This document shows positions 2,230-27,737 of a stretch of 27,737 nucleotides of DNA, piece after piece (within the stretch, counting starts at the first letter, position 1; every line of letters begins with the position of its first letter). The stretch comes from a virus. The notes under the pieces were generated by a model. It was given only the letters and a program-made list of their open reading frames with translations, was not told where the DNA came from and made no database searches. The translations under genes and the position numbers were made by a program. The stretch spans positions 1 through 27,737 of the IMG/VR virus record IMGVR_UViG_3300028844_005331; one strand, given 5' to 3'.

Positions 2230-2817
2230 ATGTTAATACCAACAGTAATTGAGACAACAGGCAGAGGCGAACGTGCATACGACATTTACAGTCGTTTGCT
2301 TAAAGATCGTATTGTAATGCTTAACGGAGAAGTTAACGACCATACAGCAAATTTAGTAGTTGCACAAATGCTATTTTTGGAATCACAAAATAGTGCAGAA
2401 GATATTAATTTTTACATTAATAGTCCAGGTGGTGCAGTAACTTCGGGACTAGGTATATATGACACAATGCAATTTATTAAATCTCCAGTAAGCACAATTG
2501 TAATGGGTCAAGCATGTAGCATGGGTAGTTTCCTTGCTATGGCAGGTGAGCCGGGCAAACGTTTAGTATTGCCAAATTCACGTACAATGATTCACCAACC
2601 AAGCGGTGGTGCAGGCGGACAAGCAACTGATATGCAAATTCAAGTTGAAGAGATTCTTAAAATGAAAAAGAACCTAACAGAAATTTATGTTAAACATAAT
2701 AGTGTAGGTAAAACATATGAAGAATTGGCATCAGCTATGGAACGTGATAATTTTATGTCAGCACAAGAAGCCGTAGATTTTGGCCTAGCAGATAAGGTTA
2801 TTGTTCGAAAAGCATAA
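2230..2817 (+). CDS. clpP: ATP-dependent Clp protease proteolytic subunit
   Basis: This is a full-length ClpP of 195 residues, matching the mature size of bacterial ClpP. The catalytic triad is intact: Ser97 in GQACSMGS, His122 in MIHQPSGG, and Asp173 in MERDNFMS. The oxyanion-region glycines (SPGGAV) and the [14 protein letters not shown] end block are also conserved. ClpP forms a tetradecameric barrel that degrades proteins fed in by ClpX or ClpA. Both unfoldases are encoded in this window (5894 and 26919), along with ClpS. A GGAG lies six bases before the ATG. It starts directly at residue [15 protein letters not shown] with no long propeptide. Function as an active peptidase is very likely. 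Confidence 0.97.
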
Positions 2818-2839
2818 TATAATTGTAATACTGTATTTG

Positions 2840-2847
2840 CATAAATA
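2840..2847 (+). promoter_or_regulatory. T4-type late promoter octamer, leaderless configuration
   Basis: CATAAATA is followed by exactly five bases and then the ATG at 2853. In T4 late promoters TATAAATA spans about -13 to -6, so +1 would be the A of the start codon. There is no Shine-Dalgarno sequence between the octamer and the ATG. Confidence 0.65.
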
Positions 2848-2852
2848 ATAGT

Positions 2853-3542
2853 ATGAAGATACACGATATATTAGAAACAGAACAAGTACTCGAAGGTCCA
2901 AACGATCCTCACATATTTAAAGCAGTATTCCTAGCAGGTGGTCCTGGTTCGGGTAAAAGCTATGTGGCTCAGAAACTATTAACCGGCGGCGGTTTAAGAC
3001 CTCTTAATAGTGATGACGTCTATGAGTATCTTGCTAAAAAACACAATATTGATTTAAGTGACCCTGATGTTATTGGAAGCGATAAAGGGCAAGAACTCCG
3101 TAGCCGTGCTAAAGAGATTACTAAAACAAGAGAAGACTTATATTTAGATGGTCGTCTAGGTTTAGTTATTGATGGCACAGGTAAAGATGTATCTAAAGTA
3201 TCACAAGCTAAATCCCAATTGGGGCAGTTAGGATACGACACTATGATGTTATTTGTTAACACAAGTGAAGAGGTAGCACAAGAACGTAATCTACAAAGAA
3301 CCAGAGTATTATCAAATGATATGGTAAAGATTATGTGGCAACGTGTACAACAAAATATAATGAAATTCCAACAAGTCTTTGGAGCTGCAAGGTTCCACGT
3401 AATAGACAACAGTGGTGGGTTAGAAGACCCCGATCGTAAAGAAAACTTTGATACGGTATATAGAGAAGTACAAAAGTTTTTAAATGATCCTCCATCTAAA
3501 AGAGCCGCCAAGGCATGGTTAGCCAAGAATACTAAAACATAG
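2853..3542 (+). CDS. Zeta-toxin-like P-loop kinase, 229 aa
   Basis: The protein has a clear Walker A motif, GGPGSGKS, at residues 29-36 in the context FLAGGPGSGKSYVAQ. SDDVYEYL follows, then an ARxxT-like stretch and an Arg-rich lid region (ERNLQRTRV). This layout fits the zeta-toxin/AAA_33 kinase group, which phosphorylates sugar-nucleotide or other small substrates. Phage members are of unknown substrate; polynucleotide kinase-like activity is an alternative. No antitoxin-like partner is next to it, so a toxin role is not implied. It stands behind a late octamer with no ribosome binding site, suggesting leaderless late expression. Confidence 0.65.
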   Translation: MKIHDILETEQVLEGPNDPHIFKAVFLAGGPGSGKSYVAQKLLTGGGLRPLNSDDVYEYLAKKHNIDLSDPDVIGSDKGQELRSRAKEITKTREDLYLDGRLGLVIDGTGKDVSKVSQAKSQLGQLGYDTMMLFVNTSEEVAQERNLQRTRVLSNDMVKIMWQRVQQNIMKFQQVFGAARFHVIDNSGGLEDPDRKENFDTVYREVQKFLNDPPSKRAAKAWLAKNTKT

Positions 3543-3565
3543 TATTTAAGTACCACCAAAAATAG

Positions 3566-3573
3566 CATAAATA
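3566..3573 (+). promoter_or_regulatory. T4-type late promoter octamer before the nuclease gene
   Basis: CATAAATA lies in the gap between the kinase and nuclease genes. Predicted +1 is 3579, which is the first base of the stem-loop at 3579-3596, so the late mRNA would start with a hairpin. Confidence 0.6.
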
Positions 3574-3578
3574 TTAAG

Positions 3579-3601: not shown

Positions 3602-3620
3602 ATATTAGATAAGGAATTTT

Positions 3621-5454: not shown

Positions 5455-5904
5455 ATGAAAATTGATAACAGTAGTTACACTGTAACACCCCCAGACCTTT
5501 ATATGACAGAACATGGAATAAGTATTCTTATTTCAAGTACTAACAACGAACTAATTATACCAGTAAAAGAATTATTTGAAAAATTTATAGCAACAAGCAT
5601 TGTATTTCTTGTTCAAAACAAAAAAACAAATTCAGAAACATTACCATGGATGTGGAATGTATCTAAAACATGTGATTTTATGATCATTGACGTAGATACT
5701 TGTGCATGGGAAGACATAATGGCAGGACTTTTAAAGTCAAAAGAAGAAGAAAATACTGTCCTATTTTACAGCGATAAATATAAGAGAAGAGAAACTGTAA
5801 AATTAATAAATGCTACAGGCACTAATCTAGTTGTGAGATCATTAGCTGATATAAACAACTATATAAAACTACAAATGAGCCCAGAATATTTTAATGAATC
5901 CTAG
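5455..5904 (+). CDS. Hypothetical protein, 149 aa
   Basis: Not recognised. It is a soluble alpha/beta-type protein with the hydrophobic strand pattern FMIIDVDTCAWEDIMAGLL around residues 78-96 and no membrane segment. The start codon follows the previous stop without a gap, and its end overlaps clpX by 11 bases. Co-translation with clpX is therefore likely. The FMIIDVD segment hints at a Rossmann-like or receiver-like fold, but no catalytic motif supports a specific call. Confidence 0.65.
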   Translation: MKIDNSSYTVTPPDLYMTEHGISILISSTNNELIIPVKELFEKFIATSIVFLVQNKKTNSETLPWMWNVSKTCDFMIIDVDTCAWEDIMAGLLKSKEEENTVLFYSDKYKRRETVKLINATGTNLVVRSLADINNYIKLQMSPEYFNES

Positions 5905-7108
5905 TAACACCATATGTAATTTTTGTAATAAAGACACAACGCAAGTAAAAAAACTACTAGCGGGTGAGAATGGCACCCACATATGTAGTGACTGTGTGGT
6001 GCTTTGTTATGGTATTGTTAAAGATGCTACAACAAATGCTATACAAAAAGATCGCAATAAAAAACTTGAAGTACTTACCCCTAGACAAATACATAACGAT
6101 CTAAACAAGCATGTAATTAGTCAAGATCGTGCAAAAAAGACTTTGAGTGTAGCAATATATAATCATTATAAAAGAATATCATCAAATACAAAAACAAAAT
6201 TACAAAAAAGCAATGTATTATTAGCAGGACCTACAGGAACTGGTAAAACACTAATGGCTCAAACACTTGCAGATTTTTTAGGAGTACCAATGGTAGTCAC
6301 TGATGCAACAGTTCTTACTGAAAGTGGATATGCAGGTGACGATGCAGAAGTTCTAATACACAAATTATTTCAGGCAGCAGACCATAAAAAAGAACGTGCT
6401 GAACATGGTATTATATATGTAGATGAAATTGACAAAAAAGCAAAGCGTAATGACTATGTTAGTTTAAGCAGAGACGTATCTGGAGAAGGTGTGCAACAGA
6501 GCCTTTTAAAGCTCATGGAAGGTACTATAGTACCGGTTCCGAACAAACCGCAACATAACCCGGAGAAGGTGGATATTGATACCCGTAACATACTATTTGT
6601 AGTAGGTGGAGCCTTTGTTGGCCTACAAGATGTTGTGGTTAACAGGCTTGGTAAAGCAAAGATAGGATTTAACGACGATTTAGACGCCGATGTAGAACAG
6701 TGGGAAAAGCACTTACAAACACGTGATTTAGTGAAATATGGACTTATACCCGAATTTGTGGGTAGATTACCGTCTGTAAACGTCCTTAGCCCCTTAAATA
6801 AGAACGATCTTGTACGCATACTAACTGAACCTGTTGATAGTATTATAGACCAAATAAAAGAGCTTTTTCTACTTGACAAAATACAAATAGAGTTTACAAT
6901 AACAGCATTGGAAGAAATAGCTAATATTGCCATAGAAGAAGAATTAGGTGCTAGAGGATTACGCAAGATATTAGATCAAGCACTATTAGAAACGCAATAT
7001 CAGTTACCAGAATTATATAAAAATGGAGTACGTAAAATTATTATAAATGAACAAGTTATATCTAGAAACGCTAAGCCACAGTACATTAAAGGTGAAAATG
7101 CAGAATAG
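5894..7108 (+). CDS. clpX: ATP-dependent Clp protease unfoldase ClpX
   Basis: This is a full ClpX architecture in 404 residues. The N-terminal zinc-binding domain has Cys8, Cys11, Cys31 and Cys34. Walker A is GPTGTGKT at 112-119, the pore loop GYAG at 145-148, and Walker B is VDEID at 176-180. IGF at 257-259 is the loop that docks onto ClpP, and sensor 2 is GARGLRK near the end. ClpX unfolds substrates bearing C-terminal tags such as the ssrA tag and passes them to ClpP. All three partners (clpX, clpP and an ssrA-type RNA) are in this window. The IGF loop suggests it can use either the phage or the host ClpP. The gene overlaps infC by 11 bases. Confidence 0.97.
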   Translation: MNPSNTICNFCNKDTTQVKKLLAGENGTHICSDCVVLCYGIVKDATTNAIQKDRNKKLEVLTPRQIHNDLNKHVISQDRAKKTLSVAIYNHYKRISSNTKTKLQKSNVLLAGPTGTGKTLMAQTLADFLGVPMVVTDATVLTESGYAGDDAEVLIHKLFQAADHKKERAEHGIIYVDEIDKKAKRNDYVSLSRDVSGEGVQQSLLKLMEGTIVPVPNKPQHNPEKVDIDTRNILFVVGGAFVGLQDVVVNRLGKAKIGFNDDLDADVEQWEKHLQTRDLVKYGLIPEFVGRLPSVNVLSPLNKNDLVRILTEPVDSIIDQIKELFLLDKIQIEFTITALEEIANIAIEEELGARGLRKILDQALLETQYQLPELYKNGVRKIIINEQVISRNAKPQYIKGENAE

Positions 7109-7646
7109 AAATAAAGGATATAAACAACGTAATAAAGGACCGTTTGTAATCTCAAACGAACGTATAAGAGCAAAAGAAGTAAGAGTAAACTTTCCAGACG
7201 GTGAAAGCCAGGTGCTGTCTTTGAAAGATGCTTTAGATGAAGCAAAGTCGTTATATTTAGATTTAGTGTTGATAGCCGAAAAGGCAAATCCACCAGTATG
7301 TAAAATTATTGATCTAAACAAACATTTGTATTCATTAAAGCAAAAAGAAAAACTGGCTAAAAAGAAACAACGTGAAAGCGTTGTAGAGACCAAAGAAATA
7401 CGTATGGGACTAAATATTGATTCGCATGATTTAGAAACTAAGGCTAAAGCAGCTCGTAAATTTTTGGATAAAAATAACAAAGTAACAGTTACAGTTGTTT
7501 TACGTGGTAGAGAACGTGGAAGGCAAGACAGTGCAAGGGAGTTGCTAAATACATTTGCATACTTGTTAGAAGTAGAATATGAACAAATCTCAACACAGAA
7601 CAATCGTGTATCTGGAAAAATAGAAGGAAAAAATGGGAAACTATAA
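7098..7646 (+). CDS. infC: Translation initiation factor IF-3
   Basis: This is full-length IF-3, 182 residues against about 180 in E. coli. The N-domain contains NERIRAKEVRV and the hallmark LDLVLIAEKANPPVCKIID. A Lys-rich linker follows, then a C-domain with KEIRMGLNIDSHDLETK and VLRGRERGRQ. IF-3 keeps the 30S subunit free of 50S and proofreads the start codon and initiator tRNA. I chose ATG 7098, which overlaps clpX by 11 bases; a longer frame from 7047 would add residues unrelated to IF-3. It overlaps the S21 gene, so ClpX, IF-3 and S21 would be translated from one message. A phage IF-3 could bias initiation toward phage mRNAs, including leaderless or non-ATG starts. Confidence 0.95.
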   Translation: MQNRNKGYKQRNKGPFVISNERIRAKEVRVNFPDGESQVLSLKDALDEAKSLYLDLVLIAEKANPPVCKIIDLNKHLYSLKQKEKLAKKKQRESVVETKEIRMGLNIDSHDLETKAKAARKFLDKNNKVTVTVVLRGRERGRQDSARELLNTFAYLLEVEYEQISTQNNRVSGKIEGKNGKL

Positions 7647-7908
7647 CAACAATAGAACTAATAATAGACGTAACGACAAACCTCAGTTTGGTAATGGACT
7701 ATCTGTGGAAGTTAGAAATGGCAATGTAGAACAAGCTATTAGAAAACTTAAGAAGCTAGTTATGAAAACTGGACTCATGAATGAAGTACGCGAACGCAGA
7801 TATTTTGTTAGTAATACTGAAAAAAGACTTAAAGCAGAGGCGGCAGGCCGAGCTAGAAGACGTAGAGAAATAGCCAAAGATTCTATAGAGAAGAAAAGAC
7901 TATATTAA
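7633..7908 (+). CDS. rpsU: Small ribosomal subunit protein bS21
   Basis: Residues 23-85 match bS21: GLSVEVRNGNVEQAIRKLKK, then GLMNEVRERRYFVSNTEKR, then a basic RARRRR tail. An Asn/Arg-rich extension of about 20 residues (NYNNNRTNNRR) precedes the conserved part and is unusual. bS21 binds the 30S platform near the 3' end of 16S rRNA and helps mRNA selection. Phage bS21 genes are known from marine phages and are thought to exchange into host ribosomes. The start overlaps infC by 14 bases. Its neighbour IF-3 acts at the same step, which supports a joint role in redirecting initiation. Confidence 0.95.
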   Translation: MGNYNNNRTNNRRNDKPQFGNGLSVEVRNGNVEQAIRKLKKLVMKTGLMNEVRERRYFVSNTEKRLKAEAAGRARRRREIAKDSIEKKRLY

Positions 7909-8004: not shown

Positions 8005-8036
8005 AAATAATCTTGCTTAATATAAGGAGAAAAGAT

Positions 8037-8459
8037 ATGACTAGATTAACAACACTAAATCTTCCAGATTTTTATAAGACTACAATAGGATTTGATAGTA
8101 TGTTTGATGAGATGCAAAATGCATTTGCAACAAACACAGGCGGTTACCCACCTTACAATATTGTAAAGGAAAGTGACACTAGCTATTCAATTAGCCTAGC
8201 AGTAGCAGGTTTTAACAAAGACGAAATAAAAATCGAACAAGACGGTAATACACTTTCAATTAATGCTGAAAAGAAACCAATCAAGGAAGAGATTGAATAT
8301 TTACACAAAGGCATTGGAACTAGAAACTTTACAAAAGAATTTAGTTTAGCTGATTATGTAGAAGTAACATCGTCAAAACTAGATAATGGTATCTTAGTAG
8401 TTACATTGGAACAAAATATTCCAGACGAAAAGAAACCACGAACTATTAAAATCGACTAA
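8037..8459 (+). CDS. Small heat-shock protein, Hsp20/alpha-crystallin family
   Basis: The 140-residue protein has the alpha-crystallin domain from about residue 40: PPYNIVKESDTSYSISLAVAGF, then DEIKIEQDGNTLSINAEK, and then ADYVEVTSSKLDNGILVVTLEQ. The last block contains the GILxVxL variant (GILVVTL). A C-terminal IxI-type motif is seen as RTIKID. Hsp20 proteins are ATP-independent holdases, and homologues are widespread in T4-like marine phages, perhaps aiding virion assembly. I start at ATG 8037, eight bases after AAGGAG, not at the upstream ATG 8013 that lacks a site. The next gene, clpS, starts 14 bases after its stop. Confidence 0.95.
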   Translation: MTRLTTLNLPDFYKTTIGFDSMFDEMQNAFATNTGGYPPYNIVKESDTSYSISLAVAGFNKDEIKIEQDGNTLSINAEKKPIKEEIEYLHKGIGTRNFTKEFSLADYVEVTSSKLDNGILVVTLEQNIPDEKKPRTIKID

Positions 8460-8473: not shown

Positions 8474-8776
8474 ATGACTCAAGCATCAACAAGTAGCGTA
8501 GCAGATATTGTTAAATTAAAAGCACCATCAAGATATAATGTAGTATTATTAAATGATGATTCTACTCCGCAGGAGTTTGTAGTAAATGTTTTACAGACGA
8601 TTTTTAATAGATCGGCAGAACAGGCAAACTCTGTGATGCTTGAGGTACACGAAAAAGGCCGAGGCATAGCAGGCACATACAGTTACGAAGTAGCTGAACA
8701 AAAATGTGTAGAAACAATAACTAACGCAAGACAAAGTCAATATCCGTTAGATGTTACAATAGAAAAAGCAGAATAA
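8474..8776 (+). CDS. clpS: ClpS adaptor (N-degron recognin)
   Basis: This 100-residue protein shows the ClpS core: YNVVLLNDDSTPQEFVVNVLQ (with the substrate-pocket NDD and TPxEFV), then MLEVHEKGRGIAGTYSYEVAEQK, and the PLDVTIEKAE end. ClpS binds proteins with Leu, Phe, Tyr or Trp at the N-terminus and delivers them to ClpA, whose N-domain it contacts. A ClpA gene begins at 26919, so the phage brings both adaptor and unfoldase. ClpS also blocks ClpA from degrading ssrA-tagged proteins, which would steer tmRNA products to ClpX. It lies in the same transcription unit as hsp20. Confidence 0.96.
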   Translation: MTQASTSSVADIVKLKAPSRYNVVLLNDDSTPQEFVVNVLQTIFNRSAEQANSVMLEVHEKGRGIAGTYSYEVAEQKCVETITNARQSQYPLDVTIEKAE

Positions 8777-9354: not shown

Positions 9355-9758
9355 TGCAAGAAGAAGAAATAAAAGAAGCTATACAAGAAGAAGTTAAAGA
9401 ACAGTACAAAGATAGTCAAATGACTAAGGCTGGAAAACTGGCTATGGAACTTGGTGCTGAGCGTAAGCGTCTTAAAAAAGAATTATCAGAATTACAAACA
9501 GAAGTAGAAGATTTAACACCAACAACACCAGTTGGTACAACAGACTGGTACATTAAATGGGCAGCAATGGGTTTTGCAGTTTGTGGTGTGTTTTTAATTA
9601 GTGCAGGTTTAGTTTATTGGGGCCAATTAGCATATATGATTAGCAGTGTTGGTTGGGTAGCAGTTGGAATGGCTTGGGGTGATAGAGCTATTATGATAGG
9701 AAGTGCTATAACTGGAACAGCAGTAGCAATGAATTTTGTACAAGGATTATTAATATGA
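9354..9758 (+). CDS. Membrane protein with N-terminal coiled coil, 134 aa
   Basis: Residues 1-53 are highly charged and helical (EEEIKEAIQEEVKEQ and LKKELSELQTEVEDL). Three hydrophobic stretches follow, at about 66-88, 90-106 and 110-131. There is no signal peptide or known motif. Topology and size would allow a holin, but nothing proves this, and the neighbours are metabolic genes, not lysis genes. The start overlaps the amidotransferase stop by one base and the end overlaps sufE by four bases. Confidence 0.65.
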   Translation: MQEEEIKEAIQEEVKEQYKDSQMTKAGKLAMELGAERKRLKKELSELQTEVEDLTPTTPVGTTDWYIKWAAMGFAVCGVFLISAGLVYWGQLAYMISSVGWVAVGMAWGDRAIMIGSAITGTAVAMNFVQGLLI

Positions 9759-10150
9759 AAATAAATGAATGGGCAGATAACTTAAACATGTTTGAAGATG
9801 GAACAGAAAGACTTGCCTATTTAGTTGAACTTGCAAGGAAGTCAACGACACTACCTAAAGAACTACGTACTGATGATAGACTTGTAGATGGTTGTATGTC
9901 AAAGATTTGGATTGATGTAGGAGTTGTAGAAGACAAAGTAAAAGTATACTATGACAGTGATGCAATGATTACTAAAGGTATTACTAGTATTGTTGCAGAT
10001 TGTTTTACAGATATTCCAGTTGCAGAAGCAAAGAAAATTACACATGATGATTTTCAAAGTTTAAACATTGCACAACTACTTACACAACAACGCAGAAACG
10101 GATTAGGAAACTTAATTGAAACTATAAGACAAAAGGTATATGTATTATGA
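9755..10150 (+). CDS. sufE: SufE-like sulfur acceptor protein
   Basis: The protein is 131 residues long, close to the usual SufE size of about 140. The key block RLVDGCMSKIWID places Cys47 where SufE carries its persulfide-accepting cysteine (consensus V-x-G-C-x-S-x-V-W). The C-terminal helix LTQQRRNGLGNLIETIRQ also matches. SufE takes sulfane sulfur from the cysteine desulfurase SufS and passes it to the scaffold. No desulfurase is seen in the window, so host SufS or IscS would be required. An IscU scaffold is encoded at 15969, making an iron-sulfur function plausible. Confidence 0.9.
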   Translation: MKINEWADNLNMFEDGTERLAYLVELARKSTTLPKELRTDDRLVDGCMSKIWIDVGVVEDKVKVYYDSDAMITKGITSIVADCFTDIPVAEAKKITHDDFQSLNIAQLLTQQRRNGLGNLIETIRQKVYVL

Positions 10151-10554: not shown

Positions 10555-10703
10555 CTGAGAATCAAGTAAGAAACGAATATAGAGAACATAGAAAAGACCC
10601 AGTATTTGCTGAGCTTTGGCCAGACACAAATAGAGCTTTTTATGAATGGTGTTCGCAATATTTAGATTACATGCACATAAAGGATAAAAGAGATGAGAAT
10701 TGA
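10551..10703 (+). CDS. Small ORF with probable CTG start, 50 aa
   Basis: An open frame runs through the gap between the cytidylyltransferase and guaC. It reads (M)[16 protein letters not shown], then [17 protein letters not shown], and ends in a charged tail. No ATG, GTG or TTG exists at a sensible place. A CTG at 10551 overlaps the upstream stop as CTGA, exactly like the ATGA junctions elsewhere in the window, with AGGG about ten bases upstream. The end overlaps guaC by 11 bases. The amino-acid make-up is protein-like and leaves no coding gap, so I favour a real gene with a rare start codon. Confidence 0.55.
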
Positions 10704-11862
10704 AACAGAAACTAAACTAGATTATACAGATGTATTGATTAGACCAAAGCGTAGTGTATTAGGCTCACGCAAGGATGTAGACTTAGCTCGTGGATTTACT
10801 TTTAGAAATTATGAAGGTGATACGTTAGATGGATATAGACATTATAAAGGTGTACCAATTATAGCCGCTAATATGGATGGAGTAGGAACATTTCAAATAG
10901 CAGATAAAATTGCACAACAAGGAATGTTTACATGCTTGGTTAAAACATATGCAGTAAGTGAATTAATTGAATACTTTGATTATGCAGAATGGACATTACC
11001 ACCAGAAGATAAAAATTTAAGAAAAGAACATGTAGCAATGAGTATTGGTATTACTGATACAGACGCAGCAAAGTTCAATGCAGTATATAAAATGACAAAA
11101 GGTAATTTAAAGTATGTTTGCATTGATGTAGCAAATGGATACAGTGAACGTTTTGGAAACTTTGTAAGAAAGTTTAGAAAACAATATCCGAATGTAGTAA
11201 TTATAGCAGGTAACGTGGTTACCGGAGAGATGACAGAGGAGTTAATTTTAAATGGAGCAGACATCGTTAAAGTCGGAATTGGACCAGGAAGCGTGTGTAC
11301 AACACGAATCCAAACAGGAGTCGGGTATCCGCAACTTAGTGCGGTCATTGAGTGTGCAGATGCGGCACATGGACTTGGTGGACATATTATCGCTGATGGG
11401 GGCTGTAACTCTAGTGGTGATGTGGCTAAAGCATTTGCTGGCGGCGCCGATTTTGTAATGCTAGGCGGAATGCTTGCAGGACATGATGAAGGCGGTGGCA
11501 ATATTATTACCAAACATTATAAAACAAACGAATTAGAATACGAAGTAGGCGAACACTTGGATAATCAGAAATGTAAAATTGAAGAAAAAAAGTTTGTACA
11601 ATTTTATGGAATGAGCAGTGATGCAGCCAACACAAAACATTTTGGTGGACTAAAAGACTATCGTGCAAGCGAAGGACGAGAAGTATTAGTTCCATACAGA
11701 GGTGAAGTACAATACACCGTACAAGCAATCCTAGGTGGGTTGCGTAGTACTTGTACATACGCAGGTGCAAGTAGATTAAAGCACTTGATGAGATGTGCAA
11801 CATTTGTAATGGTTAATAATCAATTTAACCGTACATACGAAAGCACAACAACAAAACTCTAG
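10693..11862 (+). CDS. guaC: GMP reductase
   Basis: The 389-residue TIM-barrel protein opens with [14 protein letters not shown] and [15 protein letters not shown], the GMP reductase form of the IMPDH/GMPR family. It also has [11 protein letters not shown], the active-site loop [20 protein letters not shown] with Cys202, and later IIADGGC and YRGEVQ. GMP reductase converts GMP to IMP with NADPH, a salvage step. It is somewhat longer than E. coli GuaC (347), mostly through insertions in the first half, and there is no CBS domain, which argues against IMPDH. In a phage it could drain guanine nucleotides toward IMP and adenine pools, which suits an AT-rich genome. Confidence 0.95.
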
Positions 11863-12796: not shown

Positions 12797-13774
12797 ATGA
12801 GTAAAGTACATCTATTATCAGAAATTATAACAAAGTTGCAAAACTTTAGTACTCAGGATGAGAAACTAGAGCTTCTGCACACCTATCATAAAGAACCTAT
12901 ACTACAAAGAATAATCACTATAGCATATAATCCTTGGATTGATTTTGGAATGCAAGATTTTGTTCCAAGACGGCATGGCAAACAATTTGGTATGGGTTTA
13001 ACAAAGTTCTTACATCTTCTAACAGACATCATAGATGAAAAATATGATGAAAAAGAAAAGAATTTTTCTTGTCAAATGGCAATGAATCACATAGACGAAC
13101 GTGATGCTGGACTATTTCTTAGTTTGTTAAAACAAGAGTTAGACTTAGGACTAGAACCCGAAACAATTAATGCAGTATGGCCAGGATTAATTATGGTGTA
13201 TCCACTAAGTACACCAACTGTAGCAGATTATAAAACATTTCACAAATACCCAGCAGCAGTACAGCCTATTAGTAGAGGACTTCGAGTTAATGTAATTGTA
13301 CATAAAGGCATAGTAAGTTACAAAGATAAAGAAGGTAATGATATTGAAGGTTGGAATATATACGACGAGCAGTTTATTAATTTAGCACAAAACAATAGTA
13401 CAGTATTTGACGGTCATGCAGTTGTGGCCAATGGAATAACCATTGTAGAAACTGATAATCAAAAAGTATTAGAAGCAGACCCAGAAAATATTAAGTTTGT
13501 ATTTTGGGATATCATACGGTATGATGGATTTATAAAAGGTGAAGATACACGTATAGGTTACAACTGGAGGCATAATGGTCTTGAGCATATGATTATTCTT
13601 GCATTTGATAAAAACAAAACACCTTGTTATGACATAGTTAAAGCTGATTTAGTAGGAAGTGATGAACAGTTAGAATTAACTGTTAAAAAGTTTGCAAATA
13701 AATGTGTTATAAAACGGTTAGATGGAACATGGATACGTGGAGAAGATCCAACCCAAGTTATTTACGAGTCTTAA
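12797..13774 (+). CDS. T4-type DNA ligase relative lacking catalytic residues, 325 aa
   Basis: The N-terminal part follows T4 DNA ligase: a helical DNA-binding domain, LKQELDLGLEPETINAVWPGLI (T4 has RDLECGASVSIANKVWPGLI), then an adenylation-type core. The catalytic motifs are altered. Motif I KxDG reads ISRG (158-161), so the adenylated lysine is Ile158. Motif III DGE reads DGH (205-207). Motif IV EGIILK reads NKCVIK, and motif V KFK reads VIYES, after which the protein stops. The OB-fold domain is missing. FxxWD of motif IIIa survives. The frame is long and undamaged, so it looks like a maintained pseudoenzyme, not a decaying gene. It might bind nicks or protein partners. A true ligase C-terminus is at 3-185. 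Confidence 0.75.
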   Translation: MSKVHLLSEIITKLQNFSTQDEKLELLHTYHKEPILQRIITIAYNPWIDFGMQDFVPRRHGKQFGMGLTKFLHLLTDIIDEKYDEKEKNFSCQMAMNHIDERDAGLFLSLLKQELDLGLEPETINAVWPGLIMVYPLSTPTVADYKTFHKYPAAVQPISRGLRVNVIVHKGIVSYKDKEGNDIEGWNIYDEQFINLAQNNSTVFDGHAVVANGITIVETDNQKVLEADPENIKFVFWDIIRYDGFIKGEDTRIGYNWRHNGLEHMIILAFDKNKTPCYDIVKADLVGSDEQLELTVKKFANKCVIKRLDGTWIRGEDPTQVIYES

Positions 13775-14909: not shown

Positions 14910-15446
14910 ATGACTAAAGAGAACAATAATGTACCAAGCGTTACATTTAAAGTACGAGTACCGGATGCATCAAACAGTGAAACAAATTCCTGTGAGATTG
15001 TACCATCAAAATGGGCAGATTTAACTACAGATGAAATCTTTAAAGATAAGTTAATTGTAGTTTTTAGCCTACCTGGTGCATTTACACCAACATGCAGTAC
15101 ATTTCAGTTACCAGGGTTTGAACAAAAAGCACAAGATTTTTATGATCTTGGAGTAAGCGAGATTTATTGTGTAAGCGTTAATGATTCATTTGTTATGAAT
15201 GCATGGCGTGATGCAAATAATCTTAAGAATGTTAAAGTATTACCAGATGGTAATGGAACATTTACAGAAGGTATGGGTCAATTAATTGACATGAGTGTCG
15301 TAGGATTCAATAAGCGTAGCAGACGCTATGCAATGATTGTTGAGAACGGTGTAGTTCTTAAAATGTTTATTGAACCTGATAGTTCAGCAGAAGATCCAGA
15401 TCCATATGGTGAAACAACACCAGAAAATGTTTTTGCATCATTATAG
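14910..15446 (+). CDS. Peroxiredoxin, Prx5/redoxin type
   Basis: The 178-residue protein carries VVFSLPGAFTPTCSTFQLPGF, the Prx5-type active site with the peroxidatic Cys in the PxxxTxxC frame. It also has SVNDSFVMNAW, GQLIDMS and SRRYAMIVENGVV, all typical of this group. It reduces hydrogen peroxide and organic hydroperoxides using thiols such as glutathione or thioredoxin. Its own consensus sigma70 promoter and a good ribosome binding site suggest strong early expression. In this phage it may protect iron-sulfur and radical SAM proteins against oxidation, which is an inference from co-occurrence. Confidence 0.92.
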   Translation: MTKENNNVPSVTFKVRVPDASNSETNSCEIVPSKWADLTTDEIFKDKLIVVFSLPGAFTPTCSTFQLPGFEQKAQDFYDLGVSEIYCVSVNDSFVMNAWRDANNLKNVKVLPDGNGTFTEGMGQLIDMSVVGFNKRSRRYAMIVENGVVLKMFIEPDSSAEDPDPYGETTPENVFASL

Positions 15447-15968: not shown

Positions 15969-16379
15969 ATGGCATATAGCGAAAAAGTGCTAGACCATTA
16001 CAATAATCCAAGAAATGTAGGTAAGTTTGACCCCAAGGAAGAGAATATCGGAACTGGAATGGTAGGCGCACCTGCATGTGGTGATGTAATGCGTTTGCAA
16101 ATTAAAGTAACAGAAGATGGCATTATTGAAGATGCAAAATTTAAAACATACGGTTGTGGAAGTGCAATTGCTAGTTCAAGTATGGTAACAACCATGCTTA
16201 AAGGTATGACGCTAGACGAAGCACAGGAAATTAAAAACACAACAATTGTTGAAGAATTAGCATTACCACCAGTAAAAATCCACTGTAGCGTATTGGCAGA
16301 AGATGCCATAAAAGCCGCAGTTAGAGATTACGGCGATAAAAAACAAAAAATAAACGCAAAACCGGTTGACATAACTTAG
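15969..16379 (+). CDS. iscU: Iron-sulfur cluster scaffold IscU
   Basis: This is full-size IscU (136 residues against about 128 usual). It has Cys37 and Asp39 in GAPACGDVM, Cys63 in TYGCGSAIASSS, Cys106 in KIHCSVLAEDAI, and the chaperone-recognition motif LPPVK at 99-103. All cluster ligands are therefore intact. IscU assembles [2Fe-2S] clusters from sulfur delivered by a desulfurase and iron, and hands them on with HscA/HscB help. The phage also carries SufE (9755), a member of the parallel SUF route, which is an odd pairing. The J-domain protein at 26255 is not HscB-like by sequence. The radical SAM protein at 20799 is a natural client. Confidence 0.96.
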   Translation: MAYSEKVLDHYNNPRNVGKFDPKEENIGTGMVGAPACGDVMRLQIKVTEDGIIEDAKFKTYGCGSAIASSSMVTTMLKGMTLDEAQEIKNTTIVEELALPPVKIHCSVLAEDAIKAAVRDYGDKKQKINAKPVDIT

Positions 16380-16398
16380 TTTTGTGTTATCATAAATA
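16366..16398 (+). promoter_or_regulatory. Overlapping sigma70-like and late promoters for the tmRNA
   Basis: TTGACA (16366-16371) and TATCAT (16388-16393) with 16 bases between form a good sigma70 promoter. The last part overlaps the late octamer CATAAATA (16391-16398), with predicted late +1 at 16404. The tmRNA could thus be made both early and late. Confidence 0.6.
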
Positions 16399-16403
16399 AC
16401 ATA

Positions 16404-16702
16404 TAACGTTGAAACTTGACTCAACGCATTTCAGGACCTCGGGGCAGTACCGAGCAGCTCCACCATAAACACATTTAGATGAGATATTGAATCACTGCAT
16501 GGGTGTGTTTATGATGGGGCTGAACTAGGATCGACTGGGTGTTAATAGGTAAGCGGAGTTATCGGGATCTAAGCACCGTTATCGCGAAGAAAATTTATAA
16601 TTGCAAATGACAATTATTCGCCAGAAATGGCATTAGCGGCTTAGTTTAACTAAGCACGTAGGGGTTTTAGTAAGTTGGACCTGGCAACAGAATCAACTTA
16701 CG
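16404..16702 (+). ncRNA. ssrA: Circularly permuted (two-piece) tmRNA
   Basis: The halves are in reversed order. The acceptor piece comes first and ends CAGCTCCACCA at 16465. The coding piece starts GGGGCTG at 16516 and pairs with it to form the seven-pair acceptor stem with one G-U, as in normal tmRNA. The T-arm is CTCGG/CCGAG with an atypical loop GGCAGTA. The spacer folds through CATAAACACA (16464-16473) and TGTGTTTATG (16504-16513). The reading frame from GCA at 16603 encodes the tag ANDNYSPEMALAA and stops at TAG 16642-16644, inside the hairpin GCTTAG/CTAAGC. An eight-pair stem (16670-16701) closes the coding piece. Permuted tmRNAs are the rule in alphaproteobacteria. The ends at 16404 and 16702 are estimates. 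Confidence 0.95.
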
Positions 16703-16709
16703 CTATAAT
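16681..16709 (+). promoter_or_regulatory. Probable sigma70-type promoter of the outer-membrane-protein gene
   Basis: CTGGCA (16681-16686) and TATAAT (16704-16709) lie 17 bases apart, overlapping the 3' end of the tmRNA. The -35 matches four of six positions, the -10 is perfect. Confidence 0.55.
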
Positions 16710-16752
16710 ACAATGAGTATTGTAGTATATAGTAAATAATCAAGGAATAATT

Positions 16753-17424: not shown

Positions 17425-17501
17425 GGACCCGTAGCTCAGTTGGATAGAGCGTTGGTTTGCGGAACCAAAGGCCAGAGGTTCGAATCCTCTCGGGTCCGCC
17501 A
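17425..17501 (+). tRNA. tRNA-Arg (anticodon GCG)
   Basis: A complete 77-base cloverleaf: acceptor GGACCCG/CGGGTCC, D stem GCTC/GAGC, anticodon stem TTGGT/ACCAA with loop TTGCGGA, T arm AGAGG-TTCGAAT-CCTCT, discriminator G and encoded CCA. Anticodon GCG reads CGC and CGU. Most bacteria use ACG modified to inosine for these codons, so GCG is unusual. It stands alone, about 900 bases before the other four tRNAs. Confidence 0.93.
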
Positions 17502-18419: not shown

Positions 18420-18496
18420 GTCTCCTTAGCTCAGCTGGATAGAGCAACGGCCTTCTAAGCCGTAGGTCACAGGTTCGAATCCTGTAGGGGACGCCA
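18420..18496 (+). tRNA. tRNA-Arg (anticodon UCU)
   Basis: A complete cloverleaf with encoded CCA: acceptor GTCTCCT/AGGGGAC, anticodon stem ACGGC/GCCGT and loop CTTCTAA, giving UCU. It reads AGA and AGG, the dominant arginine codons in this AT-rich window. Confidence 0.96.
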
Positions 18497-18500
18497 ATTT

Positions 18501-18584
18501 GCTCGCATGGTGGAATAGGTAGACACAACAGACTTAAAATCTGTCGCTTATGGCGTCCCGGTTCGACTCCGGGTGTGAGCACCA
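18501..18584 (+). tRNA. tRNA-Leu (anticodon UAA)
   Basis: An 84-base class II tRNA with encoded CCA, anticodon stem ACAGA/TCTGT and loop CTTAAAA, giving UAA, plus a normal Leu-type variable arm. It reads TTA and TTG; TTA is very common here. Confidence 0.96.
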
Positions 18585-18588
18585 AAAT

Positions 18589-18663
18589 ATGGGTGTGGTG
18601 TTAATGGTAGCACGTTGGATTCCAAATCCAAAAGTCAGGGTTCAAATCCTTGCACCTATGCCA
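18589..18663 (+). tRNA. tRNA-Trp (anticodon CCA)
   Basis: A 75-base cloverleaf: acceptor ATGGGTG/CACCTAT with a G-U pair, anticodon stem TTGGA/TCCAA, loop TTCCAAA giving CCA, discriminator G and encoded CCA end. Confidence 0.92.
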
Positions 18664-18667
18664 ATTC

Positions 18668-18761
18668 AGTCCTATAGTTTAACGGTAAAACACCCGACTT
18701 ATATTCGGCACAGTCTCCAGATTAGAGAGCGATACAGGTTCGAATCCTGTTAGGACTACCA
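18668..18761 (+). tRNA. tRNA-like, anticodon UAU (Ile?) with an unusually long variable region
   Basis: Acceptor AGTCCTA/TAGGACT, discriminator A, encoded CCA, D stem GTTT/AAAC and T arm ACAGG-TTCGAAT-CCTGT are all good. The anticodon arm is CCGA/TCGG with loop CTTATAT, giving UAU for AUA. Position 27-43 is a C-C mismatch. Between anticodon arm and T arm there are about 25 bases holding a stem TCTC/GAGA. Isoleucine tRNAs are class I and lack such an arm. It may be a derived class II tRNA. Confidence 0.7.
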
Positions 18762-19971: not shown

Positions 19972-20796
19972 ATGCAATTTGATTTTAAAGTAGAGCAAGT
20001 CGCAGAACTACTGCCACGTGTTAATGGCCTTTTATGGCATGATGCAATGCAAAGAGTTTTGCCCAAATGGAATATCAATACAGTTGATAGAGTTGCAGGG
20101 TTTATTGCCCAAACATCTCATGAATCGGCTGGATATACCGTTCTAACAGAGAATCTAAACTACAGTGCTGAAGCACTGGATAAGATTTTTCCAAAGTATT
20201 TTAAACGAGCAGGACGAGATGCAAACAATTATCATAGGCAACCTGAAAAGATTGCTAACATAATTTATGCAAATCGTATGGATAATGGTGATACAGATAG
20301 TGGGGATGGCTGGCGCTTTAGAGGTGGTGGCATTCTTCAACTAACTGGTAAATACAATTATACACAATTTGGTAAAGCAGAAGATATGAGTGCAGAAGAA
20401 GCCACAGAGTTTGTTCGCAGTCCTATTGGAGCCTTGGCAAGTGCATGCTGGTTTTGGGATACAAATAACATTAATAAGTATTGCGATGCTCAGGATATAA
20501 CTGGTATGACAAAACGTATTAATGGTGGAACTATCGGGCTAGAAGATCGCAAAAAACATTACGCACATGCTTTAGAAGTTTTAGGTGGACATTATACTCC
20601 ACGTGAAACGTTTGAAACAGTGCGTCTTGGATCTCGAGGCCCAACTGTAGTAAAACTACAAGAAACACTTGGACTTACTGCAGATGGTATCTTTGGAAAA
20701 GGCACAGAAGCAAAACTTAAAGGATGGCAATCTCTTAGAGGATTAACACCGGATGGTATTGCAGGACCCAACACACTAGGAATCTTATTTAAATAA
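19972..20796 (+). CDS. Endolysin: GH19 glycosidase with peptidoglycan-binding domain
   Basis: The first about 200 residues are a GH19 (chitinase-like) domain: FIAQTSHESAGYTVLTENLNYSA with His50-Glu51 and Glu60 as catalytic acids, then WRFRGGGILQLTGKYNY and the RINGGTIGL block. Residues about 218-274 are a PG_binding_1 domain, with the two hallmark repeats TLGLTADGIFGKGTEAKLKG and LTPDGIAGPNTLG. It would cleave the glycan backbone of peptidoglycan at lysis. No signal peptide is present, so it needs a holin; the 55-residue protein before it is the obvious candidate. No clear ribosome binding site is seen, so translation may be coupled. Confidence 0.95.
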   Translation: MQFDFKVEQVAELLPRVNGLLWHDAMQRVLPKWNINTVDRVAGFIAQTSHESAGYTVLTENLNYSAEALDKIFPKYFKRAGRDANNYHRQPEKIANIIYANRMDNGDTDSGDGWRFRGGGILQLTGKYNYTQFGKAEDMSAEEATEFVRSPIGALASACWFWDTNNINKYCDAQDITGMTKRINGGTIGLEDRKKHYAHALEVLGGHYTPRETFETVRLGSRGPTVVKLQETLGLTADGIFGKGTEAKLKGWQSLRGLTPDGIAGPNTLGILFK

Positions 20797-23475: not shown

Positions 23476-24210
23476 TTATTCTTCGTCTCCGTAAATAGTT
23501 AGAACTTCAGTAACAGCGACATGTCGTTCAACATCACCTTTGGTAAAGCTGACAACTCCAATTATATCACTACCTCTTTGTTCTAGTAGTTTTACGAAAT
23601 TTTTAAGACCGTTGTCTTCGAATCCACGGTCGTGTTGTGCTAAGTCTCCTGTTACAATAATTTTAGAATTCTCGCCAATGCGTGTTAATAACATCTTCAT
23701 TTGAGATGGTGTCGCATTTTGCATTTCGTCTGCTATAATCCAAGAATTCTTAAAAGTTCTACCACGCATATATGCCAGTGGTGCAATCTCGATAATGTTC
23801 TCATTAATCATATGTTCGATTGTGCTTGGTGACCAATATTCTTCCATTACGTCAAATATAGGTCTTGTCCATGGTGCCATTTTTTCTACTAGTGTTCCTG
23901 GTAGAAATCCATGTTGTTCATCAACACTGACAGCAGGTCGTGTAATTACAATTTTACTACATAAGTTTGAATTGTATGCGTCAATAGCCGCTAACACGCC
24001 TAGCAATGTTTTACCTGTACCAGCAGGCCCCATTGCAAACACAATGTTACGTTTTTCATCGTCAAGAAGTTCCACATAATCTTCTTGTGCAAGATTTCGT
24101 GGTACAATTTGTACGTGTCTTTTTCTGTGTGCGTTAAGTTGGACTATCTTATCCTGTGAATGTTCTTGTTGATATTGTTGTTTTTTGGTTTTTCGAGCTC
24201 GTTTAGCCAT
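23476..24210 (-). CDS. phoH: PhoH-like ATPase
   Basis: The 244-residue protein has a Lys/Gln-rich N-terminus, then Walker A GPAGTGKT (61-68), ITRPAVSVDEQHGFLPG, Walker B-like IIADEMQNATPSQMKMLLTR, and VTGDLAQHDR. These are the diagnostic blocks of PhoH. PhoH ATPases are common in marine phages; RNA or ribonuclease-linked roles have been proposed. AGGAG lies seven bases before the start. It is one of only three minus-strand genes here. Confidence 0.95.
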   Translation of the reverse strand: MAKRARKTKKQQYQQEHSQDKIVQLNAHRKRHVQIVPRNLAQEDYVELLDDEKRNIVFAMGPAGTGKTLLGVLAAIDAYNSNLCSKIVITRPAVSVDEQHGFLPGTLVEKMAPWTRPIFDVMEEYWSPSTIEHMINENIIEIAPLAYMRGRTFKNSWIIADEMQNATPSQMKMLLTRIGENSKIIVTGDLAQHDRGFEDNGLKNFVKLLEQRGSDIIGVVSFTKGDVERHVAVTEVLTIYGDEE

Positions 24211-24360: not shown

Positions 24361-24888
24361 ATGGATCAAAATTATATTTTAAACAACCTAAGAGCAAACA
24401 CTAGTAGAGATAGTGCATTAGAAACACTAATGGACTTTGAACGTGTAATGGATACTGCCAACATTTATGCATATAAAAACTGGATGGAAGGCGAAATTGT
24501 CGAAGGTCCACATATTGATAGATACTGGGTAACAGTTACCTTAATGTATTATAAAAATCAAATGCCAGATCCAGAAGGTGCAATGAGATTAACAAGAAAT
24601 GGTTGTAAGGTATATTATGCGGAAGAAGAATATATTACGGCTGCAAAACTAAAAAGTCCAGACGACAGTGAAGGACAAGATAATGCGGACGGTAGAAGAC
24701 CAGGCCAATCACGTGCTAAGAGAGTTATTAAGCCTATTTGGTTAGTAACAATAGTAATGCCTAGAAAATATATGAATGATGTAGAAGCAGCTAAATTGCG
24801 TGTTGATGATCAAGGTATTGATAGTAATGCAGTAGAGCAAGCATACACAGATGAGATATCTGCTGCAGATGAAGGATTAGACTTATGA
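24361..24888 (+). CDS. Hypothetical protein, 175 aa, probably late
   Basis: Not recognised. It is soluble and acidic. Its N-terminal helical region (SALETLMDFERVMDTANIYAYKNWMEG) is followed by a beta-rich part (RYWVTVTLMYYKNQMPDPEG) and an acidic tail. The late octamer and good ribosome binding site point to a late, perhaps structural, protein. It overlaps the next gene by four bases (ATGA). Confidence 0.7.
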   Translation: MDQNYILNNLRANTSRDSALETLMDFERVMDTANIYAYKNWMEGEIVEGPHIDRYWVTVTLMYYKNQMPDPEGAMRLTRNGCKVYYAEEEYITAAKLKSPDDSEGQDNADGRRPGQSRAKRVIKPIWLVTIVMPRKYMNDVEAAKLRVDDQGIDSNAVEQAYTDEISAADEGLDL

Positions 24889-25352
24889 GCATACAAAACA
24901 ATGATTTAATAGATTTAGTACAATCAACATTTAGTGTAGATCAATACAAAAGTAAAATAGGCGATGATAAGAATGTTGTAGTATTAGCATTTGAAGTCAA
25001 AGATGCCGACCCAGCAAAAGATTTAAGCCAATTTATAGAAACAGGACATGATACAATAGATGTAGACGTATCACCAGGTCCAGACAAAGACGGAAATTAC
25101 AAAGTTTTTGTCGAGTTACAACGAAACAGTAAGTTATTTGATGCAATTGATAACATACTAAAAGATATTACTCGCATAGACGAATCAGCAAACAACTTTA
25201 TGTTTAATGCATATAAAAGCGATATGCCTTCAAGTTGGAATAGACAAAACTTTGAAAGTAGTGTATACTCAAGTAGTTACGATTATGAAATGGCCACTAA
25301 CCCTAAGGCACAAGAAATATCGGAACGCATTAAATTTTTAAACAAGTATTAA
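24885..25352 (+). CDS. Hypothetical protein, 155 aa, probably late
   Basis: Not recognised. Pattern of alternating beta strands (NVVVLAFEVKDADPA, TIDVDVSPGPD, NYKVFVELQRN) followed by helices and the tail ISERIKFLNKY. No membrane segment. Translationally coupled to the preceding gene and followed by the spanin genes, so it is likely a late virion or assembly component. Confidence 0.65.
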   Translation: MSIQNNDLIDLVQSTFSVDQYKSKIGDDKNVVVLAFEVKDADPAKDLSQFIETGHDTIDVDVSPGPDKDGNYKVFVELQRNSKLFDAIDNILKDITRIDESANNFMFNAYKSDMPSSWNRQNFESSVYSSSYDYEMATNPKAQEISERIKFLNKY

Positions 25353-25830: not shown

Positions 25831-26209
25831 TTGTGCAACTGCACCACAGGTAATTTCATACAAAGCAGAACCTATTGAAAAACCAGCACTAGTATTACCT
25901 GCCGCAGGCACACTAGAATTAAGAGATGCTGATTGGGATATTATTACACCAGAAGCATTAGGAACAATATTTGATAAGTTAAAAGAAGATGGCGAACCTG
26001 TAGTTATATATGCATTAACAACAGAAGGCTACGAGCAACTTGCATTAAATATGGCAGATGTAATTAAATTGTTATCAGAACAAAAAGCAATTATTGAAGC
26101 ATACAAAGAATATTACGAACAAACAGAAAAAAATATAGATGACCACAACAGTAAAACAATACAAGTTCCTGTTGAAAAAACAGGAATACTCGACAAATTT
26201 CTTAATTAA
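25760..26209 (+). CDS. o-spanin (Rz1-like) lipoprotein
   Basis: Its signal sequence ends in the lipobox LSSC (Cys25), so the mature protein would be an outer-membrane lipoprotein. It overlaps the i-spanin gene by 71 bases in a different frame. At about 125 mature residues it is longer than many Rz1 proteins and contains a C-terminal helix (VIKLLSEQKAIIEAYKEYYEQ) that could contact the i-spanin coiled coil. GGAG about 14 bases upstream may serve as the ribosome binding site. Confidence 0.8.
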   Translation: MLHKNQKPILNVLALLILTIFLSSCATAPQVISYKAEPIEKPALVLPAAGTLELRDADWDIITPEALGTIFDKLKEDGEPVVIYALTTEGYEQLALNMADVIKLLSEQKAIIEAYKEYYEQTEKNIDDHNSKTIQVPVEKTGILDKFLN

Positions 26210-26241
26210 AAACACTAACGTTTAAGGCTCTTCATAATGTC

Positions 26242-26249
26242 AATAAATA
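26242..26249 (+). promoter_or_regulatory. Late promoter octamer variant, leaderless configuration
   Basis: AATAAATA is followed by exactly five bases and the ATG at 26255. This is the same geometry as at 2840 and 12784. Confidence 0.5.
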
Positions 26250-26254
26250 CTACG

Positions 26255-26926
26255 ATGAAGAAAATGAACAACCCTTGGTTTATTCTTGGCCTAGAACCAG
26301 GTGCTACATTAAAAGAGGTCAAAACAGCATACAAAAAATTAGCTCTAAAAAATCATCCAGACAAGGGCGGTACTATCGCCGACTGGTTGGCTATAAGTGA
26401 TGCATACGATAATATAACAGAAAAGAAACATATTCCTATTGTAAAATCACCAGATGTACAAATGGTAGATTTAGCATTAACAATAGAACAACAAATTAAT
26501 GGAATAAATGATTATATTCAAATTGATGATTTATATTTAAAAGTAAACATTCCAGCTGGTGTATTAGTAGGTGATAAATTCAAAGTAACCGATAAAAGAA
26601 AGAAATATATAATAAATGTAAAAGAAAAGGCAAATAAAGTCTTTACAAGATCAGGAAATAATATTATAATGTATAAGACATTAGATGTTATTGATGTAAT
26701 GAAACTAAATTCATTTATGATAATAACACCAACAGGTGAGCGTTGTGAAATTGATATTCCAACGGACACAGTAACAGGAAGTATAATAGTGCTAAAGGGA
26801 CATGGGTTATACAACAGAAAGAGCAAAAGAAAAGGAAATTTAAGGATACATATAAAGGTGGACATACCTTACTTAAATAGTACTAACATGGAAGAATTTA
26901 TAACGAGGTTAAGGACAAATGACTGA
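26255..26926 (+). CDS. DnaJ-domain co-chaperone
   Basis: Residues 7-60 are a J-domain: PWFILGLEPGATLKEVKTAY, then KKLALKNHPDKGG with the HPD motif that stimulates DnaK ATPase. The later part has KVNIPAGVLVGDKFKV and VLKGHGLYN, like the C-terminal substrate-binding beta domains of DnaJ (IPAGVxxGxxxRxxGxG). The Cys-rich zinc domain is absent, so it resembles type II (CbpA-like) J-proteins. An upstream ATG at 26237 is possible. I prefer 26255 because the late octamer lies exactly five bases before it. Host DnaK would be the partner. It overlaps clpA by eight bases. Confidence 0.9.
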   Translation: MKKMNNPWFILGLEPGATLKEVKTAYKKLALKNHPDKGGTIADWLAISDAYDNITEKKHIPIVKSPDVQMVDLALTIEQQINGINDYIQIDDLYLKVNIPAGVLVGDKFKVTDKRKKYIINVKEKANKVFTRSGNNIIMYKTLDVIDVMKLNSFMIITPTGERCEIDIPTDTVTGSIIVLKGHGLYNRKSKRKGNLRIHIKVDIPYLNSTNMEEFITRLRTND

Positions 26927-27737
26927 TATTGAAAAAATTGTAATAACTGCTATCAATTTAGCAAAAAAATTAAAACACGAATATGTAACAATAGAACATA
27001 TAGCCGCAGTTATATTAGATGATCCACAAGTGCAAGCAATGTGTTTTGAAGTAAATGCAGATTTTGAAAGTTTGCAAATTGCATTAGTAGAATATTTAGA
27101 AAAAGAATGTGTTGAATTAGTTAAGAATGATGCTCAAGAACCAAACCCTTTTAAAACACAAATGCTTGAACGAGTATTTAATAGAGCATTAACACAAGCA
27201 TTATTTCAAGGTAAGAAACATCTTAACCAACTAGATTTAGTATTAAGTATACTAGGTGAAGAAAATAGTATAGCGGCACAGTACGCAGAACAGTTAGGTC
27301 TTAGTAAAAATAAAGTTATAAAATGGATGCAAGAAACACAAGCACAAGAAAATGAGCAAATATTTGGCCCAGTTGATGGATTAGGTGATCCTCGTAGACC
27401 TCAAGGTGCAATGACACCTAGAGATGTATTAGCACAGTTTTGTACTAACATGAATGAAGCATATGATGAATATGATGATTTAATTGGTCGCAGACATGAA
27501 TTAAAAGAATTAGTACAAACAGTTGCACGTAAGAAAAAATCTAATGCTATTCTAACTGGTGGTAGTGGTGTTGGTAAAACAGCAGTCGTACAAGGACTAG
27601 CAAAACTTATAGTTGAAGGAAATGTTCCTGATATTATTAAAGATAAAGTTGTATGGGAATTAGATATGACTAAGTTAGTTGCTGGTACAAAATACAGAGG
27701 CGACTTTGAAGAACGTATGAAACAATTAGGCGAAGCA
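26919..27737 (+). CDS. clpA: ATP-dependent Clp unfoldase ClpA (partial, 3' end outside)
   Basis: The window holds the first 273 residues. An N-domain (1-140: AINLAKKLKHEYVTIEHIAAVILDD, with a second repeat around 78-115) precedes the first AAA+ module. That module has LIGRRHELKELVQTVARKKK, Walker A GGSGVGKT (214-221) and LVAGTKYRGDFEERM. The N-domain is the ClpS docking site, and clpS is at 8474. ClpA was preferred over ClpB because of the clpS partner and N-domain type. Whether the D2 module and ClpP-binding loop are present cannot be seen. The start overlaps the J-domain gene. Confidence 0.93.
   Translation, partial: MTDIEKIVITAINLAKKLKHEYVTIEHIAAVILDDPQVQAMCFEVNADFESLQIALVEYLEKECVELVKNDAQEPNPFKTQMLERVFNRALTQALFQGKKHLNQLDLVLSILGEENSIAAQYAEQLGLSKNKVIKWMQETQAQENEQIFGPVDGLGDPRRPQGAMTPRDVLAQFCTNMNEAYDEYDDLIGRRHELKELVQTVARKKKSNAILTGGSGVGKTAVVQGLAKLIVEGNVPDIIKDKVVWELDMTKLVAGTKYRGDFEERMKQLGEA

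Follow-up and report, generated by a model that had tools for sequence, protein, structure and literature searches.

The Clp protease and transfer-messenger RNA (tmRNA) genes of phages are usually listed one by one, and a jumbo-phage comparison describes ClpP, ClpS, ClpA, ClpX and IF3 as patchily distributed. Sets resembling the one studied here have been reported for Agrobacterium phage Atu_ph07 (PMC6102473) and, in part and with a tmRNA, for Sinorhizobium phage AP-J-162 (PMC11242549). Here we analyse IMG/VR record IMGVR_UViG_3300028844_005331, a stretch of 27,737 bases (the window) that carries clpP, clpX, clpS, the start of clpA and a tmRNA gene. The original prediction, made from the sequence alone, had seen in it a nearly complete trans-translation and Clp proteolysis pathway that looked exceptional for one phage genome. 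We find a conserved, phage-borne gene set of a known kind, in which the phage ClpX has probably been retuned away from the ssrA tags that a tmRNA appends.

Several described phages come close to the window. Atu_ph07 is reported to encode ClpX, ClpP, ClpA, ClpS, DnaJ and Hsp20 as the window does, and, unlike it, also ClpB (PMC6102473); its gene for translation initiation factor IF-3 adjoins clpX, and it has no tmRNA above cut-off, Table 1 of PMC11242549 giving 0. AP-J-162 is reported to have six Clp open reading frames (ORFs), with clpX by IF-3, Hsp20, DnaJ and one tmRNA; of the Clp proteins ClpX is named in the passages considered, and ClpS and ClpA do not appear in the main text (PMC11242549). 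Sinorhizobium phage Phosso (PV764938) likewise has clpX beside IF-3, along with bS21, hsp20, clpS, clpP, clpA and a permuted tmRNA above cut-off, but spread over a 469-kb genome. In the PA5oct group (Arenbergviridae; MIJ3, Paride, Callisto and others) the blocks clpX-bS21-hsp20-clpS and phoH(-)-structural genes-dnaJ-clpA, together with clpP, have largely the arrangement of the window; there, however, clpP follows clpS, ftsH is present, no IF-3 is annotated beside clpX and no tmRNA scores above cut-off. The tmRNA itself has a counterpart in Methylophilales phage Melnitz, a permuted two-piece molecule of alphaproteobacterial type (PMC9004378). In Melnitz it is riboswitch-controlled and the main text on that phage lacks the word 'clp', whereas the window has no riboswitch match in Rfam; the same source places 50 of 53 two-piece phage tmRNAs in marine or aquatic samples.

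Phage origin and distribution of the gene set

Pfam, NCBIfam and PHROGs identify ClpP, ClpX, IF-3, ribosomal protein bS21, Hsp20, ClpS, SufE, IscU, PhoH, a J-domain protein and the N-terminus of ClpA in the window, and ARAGORN and Rfam find one permuted tmRNA and five tRNAs. The genes and coordinates predicted for clpP, clpX, clpS, the clpA start, Hsp20 and the J-domain protein are thereby confirmed, as is a tmRNA with an ALAA-ending tag. All on the + strand, these are clpP (2230..2817; 195 amino acids, Pfam 266 bits), clpX (5894..7108; 404 amino acids), the gene for the small heat-shock protein Hsp20 (8013..8459; Pfam, phrog_432), clpS (8474..8776; 100 amino acids, Pfam ClpS 100.8 bits), the tmRNA gene (16370..16735), the gene for a protein with a J domain and a DnaJ C-terminal domain (26237..26926; profile matches) and the first 273 codons of clpA (26919..27737, the window end). 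Two genes missing from the earlier list share a gene run with clpX: IF-3 (7047..7646, +; infC 137.9 bits, cut-off 60), whose first ATG still falls within the last part of clpX and whose real start may be further on, and bS21 (7633..7908, +; 45.8 bits, cut-off 28.95).

The window also encodes two virion structural proteins (24361..25352, +; phrog_12928 and phrog_13138), whose genes adjoin phoH in PA5oct too. The gene for the PhoH-like ATPase (23476..24210, -), outside the pathway itself, serves as an anchor of synteny with PA5oct. A 204.8-kb relative of the window extends the comparison: PA5oct matches 59 of its 250 ORFs, mostly collinear across about 80 kb, and the matched ORFs include ClpX, bS21, Hsp20, ClpS, PhoH, the structural pair, DnaJ and ClpA; its ClpP is matched as well, but at another place in PA5oct. 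The window thus belongs to a large tailed-phage genome whose uncultured clade is akin to the PA5oct group, which upholds the predicted phage origin. We are nearly certain that the module is genuine and carried by a phage, and the collinearity of the relative's ORFs, Clp genes included, with PA5oct makes it an old inherited part of the phage group.

The ratio of nonsynonymous to synonymous substitution rates (dN/dS), computed pairwise against chosen loci (17 were offered, and two IF-3 alignments running through a stop were left unscored), stays far under 1 in each of the nine genes tested. It ranges over 0.04-0.13 for ClpP, 0.14-0.20 for ClpX, 0.08-0.25 for the N-terminal part of ClpA and 0.10-0.43 for ClpS, the maximum of 0.43 coming from a single ClpS pair whose dS is very low. 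The Clp genes are under purifying selection. Order, selection and synteny together show one inherited module.

We then examined 50 records: Phosso, PA5oct, Atu_ph07, phage G and 46 relatives from IMG/VR with lengths of 20 kb or more. Most relatives came via ClpX or ClpS matches, so that the counts are not an unbiased survey. ClpS is present in 45, ClpP in 44 and full-length ClpA in 25; for the permuted tmRNA, 30 records score above cut-off (33 at an E-value of 0.001 or better). Fifteen records combine clpP, clpX, clpS, full clpA and tmRNA, one of them the cultured phage Phosso, and 13 of these 15 have the order ClpP-ClpX-ClpS-tmRNA-ClpA within 24-34 kb. INPHARED lists all four clp genes for no fewer than 12 records (nine PA5oct-like, Atu_ph07 twice, and Phosso), a lower bound that takes in 40 of 188 ClpX matches. 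Records named 'Acinetobacter phage MD-2021a' that carry clp genes were excluded from the phage count, since argC, aroF and rpiA on one contig (L158, CAKLQF020000008.1) mark it as bacterial DNA; several records without annotation that bear the names of Listeria, Staphylococcus or Escherichia phages were left out on suspicion of the same. The combination is therefore conserved but not exceptional, contrary to what had been predicted, and because it is common to cultured phages it is open to laboratory study.

Substrate loops of the phage ClpX

The window ClpX matches the Pfam zinc-finger, AAA_2 and D2-small families and scores above curated NCBIfam cut-offs (TIGR00382 clpX equivalog, 433.8 against 370.75 bits; NF003745, 484 against 359). 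The C4 zinc finger, Walker A and B, arginine finger, sensor 2 and IGF loop are all kept, while the loops that contact substrate are altered: pore-1 reads GYAG, pore-2 reads SLSRDV and the RKH loop is replaced. For comparison we aligned 66 of 76 ClpX loci, omitting 10 that were partial or duplicate. The clade of the window was delimited at 51.5% identity to its ClpX, a cut chosen after the loops had been viewed; a tree later returned the same set as monophyletic with support 1.0. The bacterial set (n = 20) comprises Escherichia coli and 19 gamma- and betaproteobacterial loci, the latter from 19 of 21 genomes, two of which gave no match above cut-off.

In the 32 distinct clade sequences the zinc cysteines, Walker B and IGF are invariably kept; sensor 2 is GARGLR in 31 and GARGLK in one, and the variants of Walker A and the arginine finger are conservative, with one EFIGRFA. 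The residues that hold the tag are another matter. Six residues of E. coli ClpX, Y153, V154, T199, V202, R228 and H230, are reported to grip the ssrA tag (PMC7652416), and all six are present in 20 of 20 bacterial ClpX proteins. Throughout the clade (32/32, E. coli numbering), V154 is replaced by alanine and T199 by serine, and by alignment there is neither an arginine at 228 nor a histidine at 230; only Y153 and V202 are retained in every sequence. The RKH-type loop has 14 residues in 31 of 32, three fewer than the 17-residue RKH loop, and its replacement, VPNK....PE, is conserved like the protein as a whole (mean top-residue share 0.78 against 0.75).

The original prediction had listed the GYAG loop and IGF loop of ClpX among features that look intact. 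For the ATPase motifs, the zinc domain and IGF this stands, and GYAG is indeed the reading of the window, but pore-1 is GYVG in 20/20 bacterial ClpX proteins, so GYAG is not the ordinary form, and the loops that grip ssrA in E. coli are replaced clade-wide. The 21 other phage-record ClpX proteins are mixed, having V154 in 21, T199 in 11, R228 in 12 and H230 in 8. PA5oct ClpX has GYVG and a divergent RKH region of its own, and Phosso ClpX, with GYVG, SIT and RKN, is close to the bacterial type.

With the ATPase, zinc and IGF motifs kept, the new loop conserved and the clade monophyletic, the loops look like a replaced specificity rather than decay. Two published results serve as analogies: human ClpX is reported not to recognize ssrA until the E. 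coli loops are transplanted into it, and R228A in E. coli ClpX to lower the preference for ssrA and raise that for N-degrons (PMC7652416). By these, and judging from the alignment, the phage ClpX has probably been retuned away from ssrA tags, which makes it doubtful that ClpX and the tmRNA form the single rescue and degradation route originally proposed. A literature search found no report of a remodelled phage ClpX, and the phrase 'phage-encoded ClpX' had no match; this leaves absence from print unproven and is weak evidence that the remodelling is the new part of an otherwise known kind of gene set. The clade-wide pore change amounts to a natural experiment in which an AAA+ protease alters its choice of substrate while keeping motor and docking loop, and it makes the substrate question for phage Clp proteases directly testable.

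tmRNA, the Clp partners and competing explanations

The tmRNA gene, found by ARAGORN and by Rfam (RF01849, 114.9 bits; RF04321, 114.5 bits), is of the permuted two-piece type. Its acceptor piece terminates in an encoded CCA at 16465, the coding piece begins GGGGCTG at 16516, and the tag codons and stop (16603-16644) specify ANDNYSPEMALAA. ARAGORN called 20 distinct tmRNA genes in the window and 30 loci and was silent on 4 loci, Phosso included. All 20 have G3.U70, the alanine identity pair, and an encoded ACCA. Seven acceptor-stem variants occur; the script selected stems that begin with G and pair throughout, the third pair being left free, so that the compensatory changes among them lean towards pairing. 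The ten distinct tags all end in [L/M/I]AA. In control genomes RF04321 had matches in 5 of 14, just one above cut-off, and a search for one-piece tmRNA (RF00023) was above cut-off in 1 of 23 records, phage G, the sub-threshold matches being mostly about 75 bases long and resembling tRNAs. The Phosso tmRNA (349596-350198; L160/L190), above the Rfam cut-off, is unannotated in the deposited record. As a host signal, the alphaproteobacterial type of the window tmRNA clashes with the IscU gene, which is nearest to gamma- and betaproteobacterial genomes (best 82%, among the best 80 loci); a clash of similar kind is reported for Melnitz (PMC9004378).

No SmpB was found in any of the 50 records, of which the 46 from IMG/VR are mostly fragments, in a search whose control was positive in 10 of 14 genomes. 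Elsewhere, IF3, S21, tmRNA and SmpB are all reported among huge phages (PMC7162821). Since SmpB was found in none of the 50 records, the phage provides the RNA half of trans-translation and probably borrows SmpB from its host, so 'nearly complete' was too strong a description of the pathway.

In the window ClpS, the predicted NDD motif and the pocket histidine are kept, at the N-degron pocket positions, and the gate methionine is glutamine (M40Q). The remainder of ClpA lies in a near-identical contig (L128), whose 753-codon frame opens with the 273 residues of the window and encodes the N-domain and both AAA+ modules, D1 and D2, with a D2 GYVG pore loop; the expected D2 domain is thus present, and so is a ClpP loop, which reads IGF rather than the anticipated IGL. 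GYVG and IGF are kept in 15/15 aligned loci (15 of the 28 ClpA loci found). A ClpS-ClpA N-degron route made of the phage's own proteins is plausible from these motifs. In ClpP the Ser-His-Asp triad is intact, as had been noted, and the hydrophobic pockets that presumably receive the unfoldase loop read LNYFIMLLI against LYYFIMFLL in E. coli, identical at 6 of 9 positions.

We lean towards reading the whole as an inherited translation and proteolysis toolkit in which the tmRNA depends on the host for SmpB and ClpX has been retuned away from ssrA tags. Such a toolkit would keep translation and protein turnover going during host take-over. Host alanyl-tRNA synthetase would charge the phage tmRNA, which with host SmpB would release ribosomes stalled on broken mRNA and append a tag that ends in Ala-Ala and is short-lived. 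Phage translation would be favoured by IF-3, bS21 and the tRNAs, and phage ClpAP with ClpS would degrade N-degron substrates. Phage ClpX would dock on ClpP through its IGF loop with normal use of ATP but, because the ssrA-binding loops are replaced by another conserved loop, would most likely act on other substrates, leaving tagged proteins mainly to host ClpXP or ClpAP.

Several observations weigh against this reading. The Ala-Ala ends of the tags would suit phage ClpX and host enzymes alike as the degrading agent. With Y153 and V202 still in place, ssrA may be bound to some extent, and T199S is reported to cost E. coli ClpX no more than about a 4-fold rise in KM (PMC7652416). In about 0.41 of the clade sequences, that of the window among them, the alignment has a histidine in the column just after H230, and since the loop is three residues shorter the loss of H230 hinges on the alignment. 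The ClpS pocket varies at D36 over 28 aligned clade loci (NDD in 17, NDE in 5, NDN in 6, by eye), the window ClpS is under every NCBIfam ClpS equivalog cut-off (best 106.2 against 149) and ClpA is below that of TIGR02639 (745.9 against 993.15). The absence of SmpB is based mostly on incomplete records. A sharper version, that the phage makes tags to which its own ClpXP is blind, host ClpXP and ClpAP taking the tagged scrap while phage ClpXP is kept through VPNK....PE for substrates of the phage's choosing, we put forward tentatively, as a real but lesser possibility.

A rival reading is a self-contained route, in which phage ClpXP degrades the nascent proteins that the phage tmRNA tags and the new loop has co-evolved with the phage tag. 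For all their divergence the tags share [L/M/I]AA ends, ClpX retains Y153, V202 and a hydroxyl at 199 beside a conserved replacement loop, and in the window the tmRNA gene is no more than about 10 kb from clpX. We nonetheless think it somewhat unlikely: the clade has lost V154, R228 and the 17-residue RKH loop, the remodelling is clade-wide whereas 16 of the 46 IMG/VR records (fragments), some with a remodelled ClpX, have no tmRNA above cut-off, and SmpB was seen in none of the mostly fragmentary records. Unlikely, too, is a take-over of host proteolysis, with excess phage ClpX and ClpA occupying host and phage ClpP and turning degradation against host or defence proteins. It would suit such a take-over that both unfoldases carry an IGF docking loop and that the specificity loops of ClpX are altered, and host targeting by phage ClpP and ClpS is proposed in a jumbo-phage review; but a phage with its own ClpP has no need to capture that of the host, and no target is known.

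We consider it very unlikely that the module serves virion assembly, with ClpP as head-maturation protease and ClpX and ClpA acting on the capsid. The best PHROGs match of ClpP, phrog_94, is named 'head maturation protease' and virion genes are nearby, but the protein is of the full-length housekeeping type, 59% identical to E. coli ClpP with the triad kept; it is above the NF001368 cut-off (302.2 against 249 bits), although below the TIGR00493 equivalog cut-off (284.9 against 308.6), and under that for ClpP-related head proteases (113.2 against 120). The role could instead fall to a second, divergent ClpP-like gene in G012 (31433-32071, -; best PHROGs match phrog_94), G016, G032 and Phosso. 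Bacterial contamination or a chimeric assembly, which housekeeping-type genes on a single contig might suggest, is rejected with next to no residual doubt by the virion proteins, by a gene order that recurs in 13 records with differing IMG sample numbers and by the PA5oct collinearity of the relative.

At the clpP locus itself the clade has two ClpP subtypes, that of the window and that of L040, L042, L043, L098, L109 and others; one of the two reads TMIHRVSS/KFDTF and is found in PA5oct also.

Other genes of the window

Downstream of the tmRNA lie tRNA-Arg(gcg) (17425..17501, +) and a cluster of tRNAs Arg(tct), Leu(taa), Trp(cca) and Ile(tat) (18420..18761, +), all called by ARAGORN/Rfam. An HD_4 protein (624-1172, +) resembles the hydrolase part of RelA/SpoT, with 77.8 bits to TIGR00691, far under its cut-off; judging from this match it is possibly a small alarmone hydrolase. 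SufE (9755-10150), a peroxiredoxin-like protein (14910-15446) and IscU (15969-16379) form an iron-sulphur and redox set on the + strand, and IscU has been reported in uncultured phages (PMC5332604). The window further encodes a P-loop kinase with AAA_33 and zeta-toxin-like matches (2853-3542, +), an IMP dehydrogenase/GMP reductase (10693-11862, +), a class 3 lipase within a stretch of reversed GC skew (13758-14522, -), and a protein with GH19 and peptidoglycan-binding domains (19972-20796, +) that is likely the endolysin.

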